From the NCBI GenBank assembly GCA_030726195.1, contig JANREF010000275.1:7295-18375 (forward strand): a stretch of DNA of 11,081 bases, given 5' to 3'. This document shows positions 1,681 through 9,660 of the stretch, in pieces. The number at the start of each line of letters is the position of its first letter. Position 1 is the stretch's first letter. This DNA comes from Burkholderiaceae bacterium (lineage in GTDB: Bacteria > Pseudomonadota > Gammaproteobacteria > Burkholderiales > Burkholderiaceae_C). The notes under the pieces were generated by a model that saw only the letters and a list, made by a program, of their open reading frames with translations, had not been told where the DNA came from and searched no databases. The translations under genes were made by a program, and so were the position numbers.

Positions 1681-4419
1681 CTAAAGATTAGGCCCCAAGA
1701 ACAAGCGCACGCGCTGCTCGTCCACGCCGCTGCGCTGGGCCAAGTCTTTCACTTGGTCGTCGCCGATTTTGCCCACGCTGAAGTAGGTCGCGTCTGGGTG
1801 GGCCAAGTAAAAGCCGCTCACGCTGGCTGCGGGTGTCATGGCCAGGCTATCGGTGAGGCCCATGCCAATGTCGCCGGCTTGGAGCAGCTCAAACATGGCG
1901 GCCTTGGCGCTGTGGTCTGGGCAGGCGGGGTAGCCGGGTGCGGGGCGAATGCCTTGGTAGGCCTCTTTGATAAGCGCTTCGCAATCGAGCTGTTCGTCGG
2001 GCGCATAGCCCCACCAGTCGGTGCGCACACGCTGGTGCATCATCTCGGCCATGGCCTCGGCCAAGCGGTCGGCCAAGGCTTTGACCATGATGGCGTTGTA
2101 GTCGTCTTGCGCGTCTTCAAACCCTTGCGCGCGGGCGTCGGCCCCAATGCCAGCGGTCACGGCAAACAAGCCCACGTAATCGGGGGCTTGGTCGGCGGTG
2201 GCCACAAAGTCGGCCAAGCAACGGCTGGGGCGCATGATGCCTTGCACCATTTGCTTTTCTGTTTGTTGGCGCAGGCCGTGCCACGTCATGGCCACGGTGC
2301 TGCGGCTCTCGTCGGTGTACAGCGCAATATCGTCGTCGTTCACACGCTGAGCAGGGTACAAACCCACCACGGCATTGGCCGTGAGCCAGCGCCCATCGAC
2401 CATGCGCTTGAGCATGGCTTGCGCATCGGCAAACACTTGGCGCGCTTGCTCGCCCACCACGTCGTCGTTCAGGATGGCTGGGTATGGGCCGGCCAAATCC
2501 CAGGTCTGGAAGAACGGGCCCCAGTCTATGAATGGCACCACTTCGTTCAAGTCCAAGCCTTTGAGCACGCGCTTGCCAATGAACTTGGGTCGCGTGGGTG
2601 TGTGCTGCGCGAAGTCTATGGGCGTGGCGTTGGCACGCGCTTGGGCCAGCGTCCACATGGGTGTTTGTTTTTTGTTGGCGTGTTGCGCACGCACGCGCTC
2701 GTAATCTGCATTGAGCTCGGTGATATAGGTGGCCTTGTCGTCACCCAACAAGCCACTGGCCACGCTCACACTGCGCGAGGCGTCGGGCACATACACCACA
2801 GGGCCGCTGTAATGCGGCGCGATTTTGACGGCGGTGTGCACGCGGCTGGTGGTCGCGCCACCGATGAGCAGCGGGATTTGGCGCTCGCGAAACCAAGGGT
2901 CTTTCTCCATCTCGGCGGCCACCACCTGCATCTCTTCCAAACTGGGCGTGATGAGGCCAGACAGGCCCACAATGTCGGCGTTTTCGTCTTTGGCCTTTTG
3001 CAAAATGTCTTGCCAAGGCACCATCACGCCCATGTTCACCACGTCAAAGTTGTTGCACTGAAGCACAACGGTGACGATGTTTTTGCCAATGTCGTGCACG
3101 TCGCCCTTGACAGTGGCAATCACAATTTTGCCCTTGCTGCGCACGTCGTCGCCAGCGGCTTGCATGCGCAGCTTTTCTTCTTCGATGTAGGGCACCAAGT
3201 GCGCAACGGCTTGCTTCATCACGCGCGCGCTTTTCACGACTTGCGGCAAAAACATCTTGCCTTCGCCAAACAAGTCACCCACCACGTTCATGCCGTCCAT
3301 GAGCGGGCCTTCAATCACGTGCAGTGGGCGCCCGCCCCCTGCCGCAATTTCCTGCCACATCTCTTCGGTGTCGGGCACGATGAATTCATTCAGACCGCGC
3401 ACCAAGGCGTGGCTTAAGCGCTCGCGAATAGGCAGCGCACGCCATTCGTATTGCTTGCTGTCGTCTTTGGCTGCGCCTTTGGCCGACTCGGCCACCTCGA
3501 TGAGGCGCTCGCCCGCGTCGGGACGGCGGTTGAGCACCACGTCTTCCACGCGTTCGCGCAGCACGGGTTCCAGCTGGTCGTACACGCCCACCATACCTGC
3601 GTTGACGATACCCATGTCCATGCCAGCCTTGATGGCGTGGTACAGAAACACGGTGTGTATGGCCTCGCGCACCGGGTCATTGCCTCGGAAGCTGAAGCTC
3701 ACGTTGGACACGCCGCCGCTGACCTTGGCGCCGGGCAAGTTGGCCTTGATCCAAGCGGTGGCCTGAATGAAGTCCACCGCATAGTTGTTGTGCTCTTCTA
3801 TGCCGGTGGCAATGGCAAAAATGTTGGGGTCGAAGATGATGTCTTCGGGGGGAAAGCCCACTTGGTCTACCAGCACGCGGTAGGCGCGCTCGCAAATTTG
3901 AATCTTGCGCTCGTACGTGTCGGCCTGGCCCTGCTCGTCAAACGCCATGACCACCGCCGCCGCGCCATAGCGCTGCACCAGCTTGGCTTGGCGACAAAAC
4001 TCGGCCTCGCCCTCTTTCATGCTGATGGAGTTGACGATGCTCTTGCCTTGCACGCACTGCAAGCCGGCTTCAATGACGCTCCACTTGCTGGAGTCAATCA
4101 TCACGGGCACGCGCGCGATATCGGGCTCGCCCGCCATGAGGTTCAAGAATTTCACCATGGCCGCCTTGCTGTCAAGCATGGCCTCGTCCATATTCACGTC
4201 TACCACTTGGGCGCCGTTTTCCACCTGCTGACGCGCCACGGCCAAGGCCTCTTCAAACTGCTCGTTCAGTATGAGGCGGGCAAAGGCTTTAGAGCCGGTC
4301 ACGTTGGTGCGCTCGCCAACGTTGACAAACAAGGTCTGGTCGTCCAAGCGCAGCGGCTCAAGGCCGGACAGCAACATGGCAGGAACAAAGGTGGGCGAAG
4401 GGGTATGGTTTGGATTCAC
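1681..4419 (-). CDS. metH: Cobalamin-dependent methionine synthase, C-terminal three-domain form (split MetH)
   Basis: The product moves the methyl group of 5-methyltetrahydrofolate through cobalamin to homocysteine, making methionine in the cytoplasm. With the start at GTG 4419 it is 912 residues. In order it has: a pterin-binding domain beginning [17 protein letters not shown] near residue 25; a helical cobalamin cap ([14 protein letters not shown]); the B12 Rossmann domain with GDVHDIG, whose His442 should be the lower cobalt ligand; and the AdoMet-binding reactivation domain with [12 protein letters not shown] at 825-836. The roughly 325-residue zinc homocysteine-binding domain of E. coli MetH (1227 residues) is absent, so a separate partner protein is expected; none lies beside it here. 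I chose GTG 4419 because AGGTGA (4433-4428) sits 8 nt upstream and is masked by the SAH-riboswitch platform. ATG 4542 lies inside the aptamer. GTG 4431 overlaps the Shine-Dalgarno, and ATG 4377 has none. Function is certain; the exact start is probable. Confidence 0.93.
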
Positions 4420-4427
4420 AGCGGTCG

Positions 4428-4456
4428 TCACCTGAAGGGCGAAAGAAGTCAGGTGA
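4428..4456 (-). promoter_or_regulatory. Shine-Dalgarno-sequestering hairpin of the metH leader
   Basis: On the minus strand TCACCTGA (4456-4449) and TCAGGTGA (4435-4428) are perfect reverse complements, giving an 8-bp stem with a 13-nt loop. The 3' arm contains AGGTGA, the Shine-Dalgarno of GTG 4419. The first two bases of the 5' arm (4456-4455) are also the last bases of aptamer helix P1. Aptamer folding and Shine-Dalgarno masking therefore compete for the same bases. This is the expected logic of an ON switch, in which SAH binding frees the ribosome binding site. The complementarity is seen directly; the switching is inferred from the riboswitch class. Confidence 0.75.
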
Positions 4457-4575
4457 GCGCCGTTGTCACAAAGGTGTTGCGTGTGGACTGACAGCGCCCG
4501 CCCCGCAAGGCCTCGCCCGCCAAGCCTGACACCCGCGGCCACACAAGTGGCGGGTGATGCAGCGCTCCTCAGCGG
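4455..4575 (-). ncRNA. SAH riboswitch aptamer (ahcY-type) in the metH leader
   Basis: Read on the minus strand, the leader holds the conserved blocks of the SAH riboswitch: GAGGAGCGCTGC (4570-4559), TCAGGCTTGG (4529-4520) and ACAACGGCGCTCACC (about 4466-4452). P1 pairs GAGCGC (4567-4562) with GCGCTC (4460-4455). P2 pairs CACCCGC (4556-4550) with GCGGGTG (4536-4530). CCGCTGAG (4575-4568) pairs over eight positions, two of them wobbles, with CTTGGCGG (4524-4517); this is the conserved long-range helix. The class is known upstream of ahcY, metF and metH in proteobacteria and turns genes on when SAH accumulates. The stretch about 4516-4467 is the variable part. Recognition is by eye from the consensus and pairing; a covariance-model search for the SAH_riboswitch family would settle it. 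Confidence 0.88.
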
Positions 4576-4586
4576 GTACGGGGGCT

Positions 4587-4592
4587 ATTTTA
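4587..4592 (-). promoter_or_regulatory. Candidate -10 box of the metH promoter
   Basis: TAAAAT on the minus strand (4592-4587) lies about 12 nt before the first paired base of the SAH aptamer, where a sigma-70 -10 element would place the transcript start. It is one of few AT-rich hexamers in this stretch. No good -35 hexamer is seen 16-18 bp upstream. The box lies between the arms of a 6-bp inverted repeat (4572-4577 and 4593-4598). Confidence 0.45.
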
Positions 4593-4667
4593 ACCCGCAG
4601 GGCGCGGCTTGGCTTGTTGCGGGCAGGGGCTTGACCCGGGTTTGGCTGGTGTTGGCTGAGGTTGAGA

Positions 4668-5330
4668 CTAGGCCGCCAAGCGCGCGCCAAAGGCAATGAA
4701 CATCATGCCCACCACACTGTTGAGCACGGCGCTCAGGCGTTTGCGCTGTGCAAAGGTTTGGGCCAGCTTCACGCCACCCGCTATCAGCACACTCAGATAC
4801 ACCAAGCTCACGCACTGCACGATGACGCCCAGCAAGGCAAAGGTCAGCCCAGGGTTGGGGTAGGCCGGGTCCACAAACTGCACGAAAAACGAGATGAAAA
4901 AGAAAATGGCCTTGGGGTTGAGCAAACTCACAATCAAGGCCTTGCGGTACACGGCCTTGGGCGTGTGCTCGGGCACAGCCTTGAGCGAATGCACCATGGT
5001 TTTGACCGCGCCCGAGTCACCGCGGGTGGCCTGCCAGCCTTTGTAAGCGCCCGCAATGAGCTTGAGACCCAGCCACGCCAAATACGCCGCGCCTATCCAT
5101 TTGATGGCATGGAACACGGTGGGGTAGGCATTGAGCACGGACGATGCGCCAAAAATGGTGAGCAACATCAAAATCGTGTCGCCCGTAAAAATACCCACCG
5201 CCCCCGCATAGCCCATGCGCAAACCCGAGCGCGTGGCCACCGTGAGCACATACAAGGAGTTGGGGCCAGGCAGCAGCACAATGGCAATGGTGCCTGCTAC
5301 AAATACGCCTAGGTCGGTGATGCCAAACAT
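4668..5330 (-). CDS. leuE: LysE/RhtB family amino-acid exporter, LeuE-like
   Basis: The 220-residue hydrophobic inner-membrane protein belongs to the LysE/RhtB superfamily, which exports amino acids by proton-motive force. The family hallmark PGPN is at 21-24 in the first membrane segment. KWIGAAYLAWLGLKLI is at 77-92, and NPKAIFFFISFFVQFVD begins at 138. The C-terminus (NSVVGMMFIAFGARLA) closely resembles E. coli LeuE (YeaS), as does SFFVQF, so export of leucine or related neutral amino acids is the best guess. Six membrane segments are expected from the family. Length is normal. ATG 5330 follows a GGGGGA Shine-Dalgarno with a short spacer. The gene is divergent from the hydrolase gene at 5418 and upstream of metH on the same strand, separated by 248 nt that carry metH's own promoter and riboswitch. 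Substrate is not certain; methionine or homoserine export is possible. Confidence 0.88.
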   Translation of the reverse strand: MFGITDLGVFVAGTIAIVLLPGPNSLYVLTVATRSGLRMGYAGAVGIFTGDTILMLLTIFGASSVLNAYPTVFHAIKWIGAAYLAWLGLKLIAGAYKGWQATRGDSGAVKTMVHSLKAVPEHTPKAVYRKALIVSLLNPKAIFFFISFFVQFVDPAYPNPGLTFALLGVIVQCVSLVYLSVLIAGGVKLAQTFAQRKRLSAVLNSVVGMMFIAFGARLAA

Positions 5331-6410: not shown

Positions 6411-6442
6411 ACTGGCCACGGAGCCCGCGCGCTCGGCGTTAT

Positions 6443-6448
6443 TACAAT
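6443..6448 (+). promoter_or_regulatory. Candidate -10 box of the btu operon
   Basis: TACAAT (6443-6448) matches the sigma-70 -10 consensus at five of six positions. It sits 9 nt before the first paired base of the cobalamin aptamer (6457), so the transcript would start just ahead of helix P1. No clear -35 hexamer lies 16-18 bp upstream. Confidence 0.55.
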
Positions 6449-6456
6449 AGGCCCAT

Positions 6457-6688
6457 GTTGGTGCTCGCACAGCCGGTTCACGGCTGGCAGTTCAACGGGA
6501 AGCAGGCGGGCCGCACACACGGCCTAACCTGCGCTGCCCCCGCAACGGTAAGCAGACAAGCCACAGGTGCACGGCGCACAGGGCTTGGCTTTCATCTCAC
6601 ACGCCACTGGTTGCTCAGCGTTGAACACAACGTGCCGCAACTGGGAAGGTGATGAAGGCAGCGTCTGTCAGCCCGGATACCGGCCAAC
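6457..6688 (+). ncRNA. Cobalamin riboswitch (B12 element)
   Basis: The conserved blocks of the cobalamin aptamer occur in order: GGGAA (6497-6501), GCTGCCCCCGCAACGGTAA (6533-6551), GCCACTG (6603-6609), GGGAAGG (6643-6649), and the B12 box GTCAGCCCGGATACCGGCC (6667-6685). The outer helix P1 can pair GTTGG (6457-6461) with CCAAC (6684-6688), and GCAGG (6502-6506) pairs with CCTGC (6528-6532) inside. The class binds adenosyl- or other cobalamins and lowers expression of the downstream gene when B12 is plentiful. Here it precedes a B12 importer, the classic arrangement. Boundaries are from the P1 pairing. Confidence 0.95.
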
Positions 6689-6841
6689 CAAGTGGCTTGC
6701 TTTCACAATGGTGGGCAAGCTGTTCCGCCCATACTGTCGGGGAAGGCAGTTAGTGCGTTGCATGACACTGCATGAAGGTGCAGGGGTGCATTGAGTCGCA
6801 TCTAGTCGTACCCATTTGCATTCATTTGCATCGGTTTGCCC
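6689..6841 (+). promoter_or_regulatory. Expression platform / long leader of btuF
   Basis: These 153 nt separate the cobalamin aptamer from the btuF ATG. The first part holds a perfect 6-bp hairpin, GCTTGC (6695-6700) with GCAAGC (6715-6720), loop 14 nt. No U-run follows, so it is not an intrinsic terminator. The rest is the 10-bp-periodic repeat listed separately. There is no convincing Shine-Dalgarno directly before ATG 6842, and an in-frame TAG at 6803-6805 rules out an N-terminal extension. Control is therefore probably at translation or by Rho, but the mechanism cannot be read by eye. Confidence 0.5.
6751..6840 (+). repeat. Degenerate 10-bp periodic repeat before btuF
   Basis: Cut into ten-base blocks from 6781, all six blocks to 6840 have G at position 8, five of six have C at 9, five have A at 10 and five have T at 6, so TGCA or a close variant recurs every 10 bp. 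CATTTGCAT is exact at 6813-6821 and 6823-6831. AGTCGCA and AGTCGTA are also 10 bp apart (6794, 6804). In 6751-6780 a shifted phase gives TGCATGA at 6759 and 6769. It ends at the btuF start codon. Confidence 0.7.
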
Positions 6842-7720
6842 ATGGTTCAACACGCTTTACGTTTTGCGCTGGCCTGCGCGCTGTGCCTGTCGCCCCTGTG
6901 GGGTAGCGCTCAAGTGCGTGTGCTGGACGACCGTGGTGACGCACTGGTGCTGCCGCACGCACCGCAGCGTATCGTGAGCTTGCTGCCGTCCATCACCGAA
7001 ACGGTGTGTGCCTTGCAGCAATGCCACCGGCTGGTGGGCGTAGACCGCTATTCGGACTTTCCCCCCAGCGTCAAAACGCTGCCCCAAATGGGCGGCGGCC
7101 TGGATCCCAACATCGAGGCCATCGTGGCCGCACGCCCAGACGTGGTGCTCATGGCCCGCTCATCGCGCGCCACGCCGCGCCTCAAGCAGCTCGGCATACA
7201 GGTGCTGGAGCTGGAGCCACTGAACTACAAAGACATTGAGCGCGTCACCCTCACCTTGGGGCGCTTGCTGCAAGTTGATCACGCCCAGGCCTTGTGGCAG
7301 TCCATCGAGCGCGACTTGGCCGCAGCCGCCCAACAAGTGCCCCCACAAGCGCGCGGCGCGCGGGTGTACTTTGAAGCCAGCTTGGGCGGCTACGCTGCCA
7401 GCGAGTCCTCGTTTATTGGCGAGACGCTGCAGCGTTTGGGGCTGGCCAACGTGGTACCTGCCGCGCTGGGCCAGTTTCCTAAACTCAACCCCGAGTTTGT
7501 AGCCCGCGCCAACCCCGACCTCATCATGACGGGCGAGCACACCGCACAAGAACTGGCCAAACGCCCAGGCTGGCAGTCGTTGCCCGCCGTGCGCGCGGGC
7601 CATGTGTGCGCCTTTGCCAGTGCCGACGCCAACACCTTGGTGCGCCCCGGCCCGCGCATTGCACAGGGCGCGCAAGCAGTGGTCGAGTGCCTGCGCCACA
7701 CCCTGGGAGCCCCTACATGA
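6842..7720 (+). CDS. btuF: Vitamin B12 ABC transporter periplasmic binding protein
   Basis: The 292-residue product is a class III (helical-backbone) periplasmic binding protein that delivers cobalamin to the BtuC2D2 importer. An N-terminal signal peptide (hydrophobic 5-20, AxA-like end near WGSA) precedes the mature protein starting about QVRVLDDRG. The first lobe has RIVSLLPSITETVCAL, then LVGVDRYSDFP, then a PQMGG...DPNIEAIVAARPDVVL stretch typical of BtuF. Length is normal (E. coli BtuF is 266 residues). The start could also be TTG 6836, but ATG 6842 is preferred. The stop overlaps the btuC start as ATGA. It lies downstream of a cobalamin riboswitch, which supports B12 over iron-siderophore or haem as substrate; sequence alone would not fully separate these. 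No btuB outer-membrane receptor is in the window. Confidence 0.9.
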   Translation: MVQHALRFALACALCLSPLWGSAQVRVLDDRGDALVLPHAPQRIVSLLPSITETVCALQQCHRLVGVDRYSDFPPSVKTLPQMGGGLDPNIEAIVAARPDVVLMARSSRATPRLKQLGIQVLELEPLNYKDIERVTLTLGRLLQVDHAQALWQSIERDLAAAAQQVPPQARGARVYFEASLGGYAASESSFIGETLQRLGLANVVPAALGQFPKLNPEFVARANPDLIMTGEHTAQELAKRPGWQSLPAVRAGHVCAFASADANTLVRPGPRIAQGAQAVVECLRHTLGAPT

Positions 7721-8793
7721 CAGGCGCACACGCGGGCATGGCGCACCCACGCTTGCTGCACATGGGCTTGCTGCTGGCCACCGCTTGCTTTGCGGTGCTG
7801 GGCATGTGTGTGGGCAGTACGGGCCTAGACAACTTGGCCGCAGCTTTGCTCAGCCCCGGGCACGACGCCAGCGCCTACGCACTGGCGCAGCAAATCGTGC
7901 TCGACATCCGCTTGCCGCGCACCTTGGGCGCATGGGCTGCGGGTGCTTTGTTGGGCTTGGCCGGTGCCATGGCCCAAGGCTTGTTTCGCAACCCCCTGGC
8001 CGATCCATTTTTGCTGGGCAGCGCCTCAGGTGCGTCCTTGGGTGTGGCGCTGGCGTTGGCGGCCATGTCCAGCATGAGCGGCAGCGCATACATGTTGGTG
8101 AGTTTGTCGGGCGGAGCATCCGCCGGTGGCTGGTTGCTGCGTTTGGGCCTCACGGGCTCGGCTTTTCTGGGTGCGGTGCTGGCCGTGCTGCTCACCATTG
8201 TGTTGTCGCGCGGCGTGCAACACACCATGCGCTTGTTGCTGGCCGGGGTGGTGGTGGGCGTGGTGCTGGGCGCGCTCACGCAACTGGTGTTGCTCATGTG
8301 GCCAGACTCACTGCAAACCATGCAGGCGTTTTTATTGGGCTCGACCAGTTTTGTGGGCTGGGCCTCGTTTGGCCTGATGGCTGTGGTGTGGCTGGTCTGC
8401 GCGGCGCTGGCTGTGATGCTGGCCAAGGTACTGGATGGCTTGAGCCTGGGCGAATCCACCGCCGTGAGTTTGGGCTTGCCGCTGCGCTCCATGCGCGCGG
8501 CACTGGTGGCGGTGCTGGCGCTGGCCACGGCCGCAGCTGTGGCACAAACGGGCTTGATTGCCTTTGTGGGCCTGGCCGCACCGCACTTGGTGCGCAGCAT
8601 GGCCCGCGTGAAACACGCACAGCTCATGCTGCTGTCCAGCTTGGTGGGCGGCTTGTTGCTCATGGCGGCCGACACCGCCGCGCGCTGGCTGGTGGCGCCG
8701 CAAGAGCTGCCCGTGGGCGTACTCACCGCCGTACTCGGTGGCGGCTACTTGCTGTGGCTGATGCGCGGCAACAGCGCGCCAACGCAGGCATAA
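7717..8793 (+). CDS. btuC: Vitamin B12 ABC transporter permease
   Basis: The 358-residue FecCD-family permease forms the inner-membrane channel of the BtuCDF importer as a dimer. It is strongly hydrophobic throughout, with about ten membrane segments expected. The family signatures are RNPLADPFLLGSASGA from residue 91 and GLIAFVGLAAPHLVR at 279-293. The latter includes the cytoplasmic loop that contacts the ATPase. ATG 7717 overlaps the btuF stop (ATGA), with GGGAG at 7705-7709 seven bases upstream, so translation is probably coupled. The same frame stays open upstream to 7606 inside btuF, but that is chance. Substrate is assigned from the upstream cobalamin riboswitch. Confidence 0.92.
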   Translation: MTGAHAGMAHPRLLHMGLLLATACFAVLGMCVGSTGLDNLAAALLSPGHDASAYALAQQIVLDIRLPRTLGAWAAGALLGLAGAMAQGLFRNPLADPFLLGSASGASLGVALALAAMSSMSGSAYMLVSLSGGASAGGWLLRLGLTGSAFLGAVLAVLLTIVLSRGVQHTMRLLLAGVVVGVVLGALTQLVLLMWPDSLQTMQAFLLGSTSFVGWASFGLMAVVWLVCAALAVMLAKVLDGLSLGESTAVSLGLPLRSMRAALVAVLALATAAAVAQTGLIAFVGLAAPHLVRSMARVKHAQLMLLSSLVGGLLLMAADTAARWLVAPQELPVGVLTAVLGGGYLLWLMRGNSAPTQA

Positions 8794-8868
8794 CCAGTCG
8801 TCACCCAACTCACCAGACACACCCAATACAGCACAAGCAGCACATACCGCACACGCTCCACGTCCACC
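8794..8868 (+). promoter_or_regulatory. C-rich, G-poor btuC-btuD spacer
   Basis: The 75-nt spacer has 35 C, 24 A, 9 G and 7 T on the coding strand. It has no Shine-Dalgarno before the btuD ATG and should be nearly unstructured as RNA. A high C-to-G ratio over this length is what Rho utilisation sites look like, and CA-rich unstructured leaders can also be loaded by ribosomal protein S1. Either role is inference. Confidence 0.35.
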
Positions 8869-9660
8869 ATGTCTCAGTCCACCACCAGCCCCCACGCCCT
8901 GTCCGCGCGCCATTTGTGCGTGTCGCTGGGCCACACGCAGGTGCTGCACGACATCAGCTTGTCGCTACCCGCAGGCTGCTGGACCAGCGTGGTCGGGCCC
9001 AACGGCGCGGGCAAGTCCACCTTGCTCAAGGCTCTGGCAGGTGTGCTGCCCAGCCAAGGCGACATGACGCTGCTGGGTCAACCCGCAGCCAGTTGGTCGC
9101 GCCGCGCGCGCGCGCAACAGCTGGCATGGCTGGGGCAAAACCAACACGGCGGCGACGACTTGAGTGTGTACGACGTGGTGCTGCTGGGGCGCCTGCCACA
9201 CCAAGCTTGGCTGAGCGCACCCAGCGAACAAGACGCCGCCGCCGTACGCGACGCTTTACAAGCCACGCAAGCCTGGGAGTGGCGCACGCGCGCACTGGGC
9301 CAGCTGTCGGGTGGTGAGCGCCAGCGCGTGTTGCTGGCGCGCGCACTGGCCGTGAACGCCAGCGTCCTGCTCATGGACGAGCCACTGGCCAATCTCGACC
9401 CACCGCACCAAGCCGACTGGCTGGATGTGGTGCACCGCTTGGTGGCCCGAGGCGTTACCGTGGTGAGCGTGCTGCACGAGCTCACCATGGCGCTGCACGC
9501 CGACCACATGGTCATCATGAACAAAGGCCGCATCACACACCAAGGCAGTTGCGCCAGCCCGGACACGCACGCTGCCCTCACACAAGTATTCGACGAGCGC
9601 ATTGCCATACACGTGCTCAACGGCCAATGGGTGGCCATGCCAAAACGCGCGGGTATGTAA
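8869..9660 (+). CDS. btuD: Vitamin B12 ABC transporter ATP-binding protein
   Basis: The 263-residue ATPase powers the BtuCDF importer from the cytoplasmic face. All ABC motifs are present: Walker A GPNGAGKST at 43-51, Q-loop glutamine near residue 90-92, signature LSGGERQ at 146-152, Walker B VLLMDE at 166-171 with its catalytic Glu, D-loop ANLD at 174-177 and H-loop His203. The segment YDVVLLGRLPHQ after the Q-loop is typical of the FecCD-coupled (iron-siderophore/B12) group. Length is close to E. coli BtuD (249 residues). The ATG lacks a Shine-Dalgarno and follows a 75-nt G-poor spacer, unlike the tight btuF-btuC junction. Last gene of the apparent btuFCD operon. Confidence 0.92.
   Translation: MSQSTTSPHALSARHLCVSLGHTQVLHDISLSLPAGCWTSVVGPNGAGKSTLLKALAGVLPSQGDMTLLGQPAASWSRRARAQQLAWLGQNQHGGDDLSVYDVVLLGRLPHQAWLSAPSEQDAAAVRDALQATQAWEWRTRALGQLSGGERQRVLLARALAVNASVLLMDEPLANLDPPHQADWLDVVHRLVARGVTVVSVLHELTMALHADHMVIMNKGRITHQGSCASPDTHAALTQVFDERIAIHVLNGQWVAMPKRAGM

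Follow-up and report, generated by a model that had tools for sequence, protein, structure and literature searches.

The window analysed here is a stretch of 11,081 nucleotides from a Burkholderiaceae bacterium (contig JANREF010000275.1, assembly GCA_030726195.1). Pfam and NCBIfam profiles identified metH2 on its minus strand (1681..4419, 912 aa), whose product carries a pterin-binding, two B12-binding and an activation domain, the larger C-terminal part of MetH. A search of this protein for the homocysteine-binding domain PF02574 gave no match, so metH2 does not encode a full-length MetH; the sole PF02574 match found in the genome is metH1, on a separate contig. A preliminary description of this DNA had named the gene metH. 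A methionine synthase gene does lie downstream of the aptamer described below, but it is the metH2 of a split enzyme, without the homocysteine domain. Its GTG start codon (4417..4419, minus strand) is in frame and is preceded by a Shine-Dalgarno (SD) sequence, AGGTGA at 4433-4428, eight bases ahead of the GTG at 4419-4417. The metH2 frame also extends upstream without a stop codon, across the riboswitch and as far as a GTG at 4542, and automatic annotation could therefore place the start within the aptamer.

Upstream of the metH2 unit lies a LysE/LeuE-type exporter gene (4668..5330, minus strand; PF01810, NF008201). The genus of the window contributed seven metH2 leaders from six genomes, its own included, and in all seven (L119-L124 and the window) a LysE/LeuE-type gene adjoins the SAH-metH2 riboswitch. 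In leader L122, metH1 is found just upstream of this gene, and genome G303 carries two SAH-metH2 leaders with the exporter gene (L119 and L121). Elsewhere in the window, a cobalamin riboswitch on the plus strand (6442-6702; RF00174, 59 bits) precedes a transporter operon at 6836-9660 that encodes a periplasmic binding protein, a FecCD-type permease and an ABC ATPase. These proteins are BtuF/C/D-like, yet fall under the NCBIfam cut-offs for BtuF/C/D. The cobalamin riboswitch and the transporter operon thus share the window with the B12-dependent metH2.

A covariance-model search of the minus strand matched the SAH riboswitch family RF01057 at 4576-4448 with 47.2 bits (E = 2.3e-6 for the window), above the gathering score of 37 bits. 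The alignment spans the full model (1-78), with no non-standard pairs marked. The SAH riboswitch proposed in the preliminary description is thus borne out, and by sequence 4576-4448 is confirmed as a standard SAH aptamer. The Rfam alignment and the sequence together define helix 1, in which CCCGCUGAG (4576-4568) pairs with CUUGGCGGG (4524-4516) over 9 bp with two G-U wobbles. This helix contains the long-range pairing of CCGCTGAG with CTTGGCGG, kept with two wobbles, that had been noticed earlier. The P2 hairpin CACCCGC...GCGGGUG (4530..4556) is formed by 4556-4550 and 4536-4530. The pseudoknot helix, named P4 in the excerpted text of PMC5621056, joins GAGCGCUG (4567-4560) to CGGCGCUC (4462-4455) through 8 bp including one wobble, with -14.2 kcal/mol as a duplex; its 3' strand is the contested strand of the proposed switch.

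The window has the core blocks, helix 1, P2, the pseudoknot and the SAM-cycle target in common with the RF01057 family, the aptamer being placed before metH2. It differs in a 53-nt insert (4463..4515) that separates helix 1 from the 3' strand of the pseudoknot, and the window scores below the matches listed for its taxonomic family, which are the best ones only. The insert folds at chance level (z = 0.01, 99 of 200 shuffles as low), so that a P3-like hairpin within it is not supported. According to the excerpt of PMC7057144, riboswitches of this family bind SAH at 32 nM and discriminate about 1000-fold against SAM.

Downstream of the pseudoknot strand, UCACCUGA (4456-4449) forms a perfect 8-bp stem with UCAGGUGA (4435-4428), which holds the SD AGGUGA (4433-4428). 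This hairpin has a 13-base loop and a folding energy of -9.5 kcal/mol (z = -3.64, none of 200 shuffles as low). Its stem, the longest Watson-Crick match, compares with a null mean of 4.0, and none of 200 shuffles of the downstream sequence attained 8 bp. The perfect 8-bp anti-SD hairpin reported in the preliminary description is therefore present. The same description held that the hairpin arm begins within the aptamer, so that ligand binding and SD masking exclude each other. Two bases, U4456 and C4455, are indeed common to the hairpin arm and an aptamer helix, but that helix is the pseudoknot P4, not P1. Without the two shared pairs, a hairpin of 6 bp and -5.8 kcal/mol remains, which could coexist with the aptamer. 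The SD-masking hairpin thus overlaps the aptamer, but an overlap of two bases is too small for the 8-bp hairpin by itself to imply strict exclusion, and that claim is too strong.

Exclusion is better based on a longer predicted helix. Folding of 4466-4410 gave -19.4 kcal/mol (z = -3.53, 2 of 200 shuffles as low), with an extended OFF hairpin (4418..4466) that is predicted to take in CGGCG (4462-4458) of the pseudoknot strand as well as the SD and some bases of the start codon. Because this helix would reclaim most of the pseudoknot strand together with part of the start codon, the exclusion of SD masking by the aptamer follows from it more readily. When the pseudoknot strand was held, the cost of opening the SD dropped from 11.5 to 5.5 kcal/mol, which is still above zero and comes from folding only, and the local fold lost 10.9 kcal/mol, a value attained by 1 of 100 shuffled downstream sequences. 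The nearest-neighbour folding used here leaves out the pseudoknot itself. The number of pseudoknot bases pairing downstream was at chance in the window, with 43 of 100 shuffles attaining the same value, and this count was dropped as evidence.

We then compared the leader with its relatives. A motif search gave 92 matches in 125 loci, of which 22 were excluded because the next 450 bases lacked any of three gene signatures; the 70 SAH leaders kept comprised 39 metH2, 29 ahcY and 2 metH1 leaders. The metH loci were the best 80 of 592, with the motif before metH2 in 24 and before metH1 in 2, and the remaining 15 metH2 leaders were drawn from Rfam searches. An Rfam check of 20 of the 24 motif-bearing metH2 leaders placed 19 above the cut-off and one, L006, below it. 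The two genomes with the motif before metH1 rather than metH2 (L005, 1-68; L082, 1839-1897) were found by the motif search only.

In 30 of the 39 metH2 leaders, a possible in-frame start follows the pairing strand GGTGAG by 3-12 nt; the other nine have no start codon at that distance downstream of it. Holding the pseudoknot strand cost a median of 10.1 kcal/mol in the metH2 leaders, compared with 4.8 kcal/mol in shuffled sequences (n = 39). At the level of single leaders, no more than 5 of 100 shuffles attained the predicted coupling in 27 of 39; in the other 12 more than 5 did so, and these 12 have a higher downstream G+C content (0.67 vs. 0.58 in the 27). Long stems occur in both groups, the longest Watson-Crick match of the pseudoknot-end arm to the downstream sequence reaching p ≤ 0.05 in 23/39 metH2 and 18/29 ahcY leaders. 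The two groups could not be told apart by their fold-energy z-scores (median -1.69 for metH2 and -1.66 for ahcY).

Covariation was analysed on 33 distinct metH2 arm pairs, with the 3' arm anchored on GGTGAG, so that conserved columns carry little information. In the arm helix, 82.7% of cells pair, compared with 78.8% after shuffling, and none of 500 shuffles attained this value. There were 18 double-change cells against a shuffled mean of 9.1 (0/500 attaining) and at most 8 when the arms were slid. These are confined to three base pairs of the helix, a number no higher than in shuffles (336/500 attaining), and the base pairs concerned are within 8-10 and do not belong to the pseudoknot.

With the register anchored on GGTGAG, the repeat extends into the pseudoknot end by three or four uninterrupted base pairs in 35 of 39 metH2 leaders. 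The four below three are the window, L093 and L122 with two each and L006 with one, and the short overlap counts against a switch in the window. In the window, GGTGA is not followed by the G that supplies the third pair in L120, L123 and L124 of its own genus. These three leaders, of which L123 and L124 are near-identical, keep CCGCTGTGAA at the start, folding back onto the pseudoknot strand, and this fold-back supports the extended OFF helix.

A probable -10 element, TAAAAT, lies at 4592-4587 on the minus strand and was recognized by the conservation of TANAAT. Among the 68 SAH leaders with enough upstream sequence, 63 have TANAAT 10-18 nt upstream of the GAGGAG aptamer core, compared with 0.6% in shuffled upstream sequence; the exceptions are L088, L090, L112, L123 and L124. 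A sigma-70 scan, which also requires a -35 box, found no sites. From the position of TAAAAT, the transcript should start a few bases before helix 1, and across the SAH leaders the aptamer probably sits at the extreme 5' end of the transcript.

The genome, in an assembly that is 87% complete, has two SAH riboswitch matches, one before ahcY and one before metH2. The ahcY leader (L001) has the same aptamer and the same GCTCACC/GGTGAGC repeat as the metH2 leader. As a group, however, ahcY leaders differ from metH2 leaders: the repeat arm is mostly away from the start and the local coupling is weak. Only 6 of 29 ahcY leaders have a possible in-frame start at 3-12 nt from GGTGAG, L001 being one of them by virtue of an ATG located 60 bases ahead of a later in-frame ATG. 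The median coupling of the ahcY leaders was 1.4 kcal/mol, compared with 4.4 kcal/mol in shuffled sequences, and in 3 of 29 no more than 5 of 100 shuffles attained it. In addition, a third downstream segment matches the same 5' arm at an uncorrected p ≤ 0.05 in 11/29 ahcY and 0/39 metH2 leaders; in some ahcY leaders, such as L103, it stands directly before a T-run. We tentatively suggest, at slightly less than even chances, that one aptamer and one repeat entering the pseudoknot strand could serve two read-outs in the same genomes. In metH2 leaders the repeat arm would be the SD, so that the ribosome-binding site competes for the pseudoknot; in ahcY leaders, where this arm is in most cases not close to the start codon, the same 5' arm can find a partner in a different downstream segment, which may form a platform of another type.

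For the window, a SAH riboswitch that switches on translation of metH2 appears to be the best explanation, and we hold it with good confidence. The folding results, through the cost of opening the SD, and the comparison of metH2 leaders, through GGTGAG placement and coupling, make a SAH-activated translational switch likely, while the induction of metH2 by SAH would follow from the riboswitch family and the anatomy of the leader. Transcription would start at the TAAAAT promoter a few bases upstream of the aptamer. Without SAH, the pseudoknot 3' strand (4462-4455) would pair with the region further down that holds the SD and the start codon, and metH2 would be poorly translated. With SAH bound, the pseudoknot would keep 4462-4455, the SD hairpin would retain no more than six pairs and ribosomes would load. 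More MetH2 would then favor homocysteine remethylation, while the genome's other SAH riboswitch, before ahcY, would drive the hydrolysis of SAH. A rough energy balance seems compatible with such a switch: the pseudoknot (-14.2 kcal/mol), an initiation penalty of roughly 7 to 10 kcal/mol and the residual hairpin (-5.8 kcal/mol) would sum to about 5 to 8 kcal/mol above the OFF fold of -17.8 kcal/mol. If SAH is taken to be at 100 micromolar, a 32 nM binder (excerpt of PMC7057144) would contribute about 5 kcal/mol.

Three other readings were weighed against this switch. The aptamer could be real but act on transcription, through intrinsic or Rho-dependent termination in the leader, with SD masking secondary. 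Untranslated leaders are frequently Rho targets, which counts in favor of this reading. So does the use of the metH SAH riboswitch of Dechloromonas aromatica as the starting material for transcription-regulating constructs, as stated in the excerpt of PMC5621056. However, no terminator-like site was found in 4300-4760 by a scan that covers loops of 3-8 bases and is blind to the 13-base loop here, and no U-run follows the SD hairpin; an intrinsic terminator platform was rejected on these two grounds. The 3' arm, moreover, is itself the SD at normal spacing, and we consider control at transcription unlikely.

Somewhat less probable still is that the SD hairpin acts as a constitutive brake or a thermosensor uncoupled from the aptamer. 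Six of its eight pairs lie off the pseudoknot, and the 6-bp remnant persists with both shared bases unpaired. Against such uncoupling stand the entry of the GCTCACC/GGTGAG repeat into the pseudoknot end in most metH2 leaders, the pair-preserving changes in the outer part of the repeat and a cost of holding the pseudoknot strand far above that of shuffles. We regard as highly improbable that the leader is coding, with metH2 read from GTG 4542 and the aptamer inside the gene. The open frame across the aptamer (ORF 1681-4542) would permit it, but similarity to the 80 listed relatives begins at residues 1-17 counted from the 4419 start, where the query itself began, and the region is taken up by the Rfam core and the -10 element. 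An aptamer within the coding region was rejected on the protein start common to these relatives.

SAH riboswitches were present in 293 of the 299 family genomes searched, and their association with metH has precedents. In Comamonadaceae, MetH was assigned to the SAH regulon in 2014 as one of its taxon-specific members (excerpt of PMC4239095), and a metH SAH riboswitch is mentioned in Dechloromonas aromatica (excerpt of PMC5621056). The preliminary description had noted that SAH riboswitches are best known from ahcY; given these two reports, control of metH by them is not surprising. Neither the riboswitch family nor its placement before metH is new, which leaves little surprise, and this is not a new kind of riboswitch. 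Compared with the Comamonadaceae regulon as given in the excerpt of PMC4239095, which is silent on the expression platform, the window has the target in common and, judging by the relatives found, the lineage; it differs in its gene, metH2, which encodes part of a split MetH and has leuE as its immediate upstream neighbor. The D. aromatica riboswitch, in the excerpt of PMC5621056, likewise has a SAH aptamer before metH and a P4 that forms the pseudoknot, but was used for transcription regulation, whereas the anatomy of the window points to translation. Among the matches listed in our literature search, some of them excerpts, we found no description of competition between the SD and the pseudoknot.

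The locus adds a well-supported candidate for a translational SAH switch that would act on the methionine-synthesis half of the SAM cycle. The comparison of leaders indicates its likely wiring, in which the SD would compete directly with the pseudoknot strand. The metH2 leader offers a clean test case for SAH-dependent translation, and its counterpart in this genome is an ahcY riboswitch that is apparently built differently.
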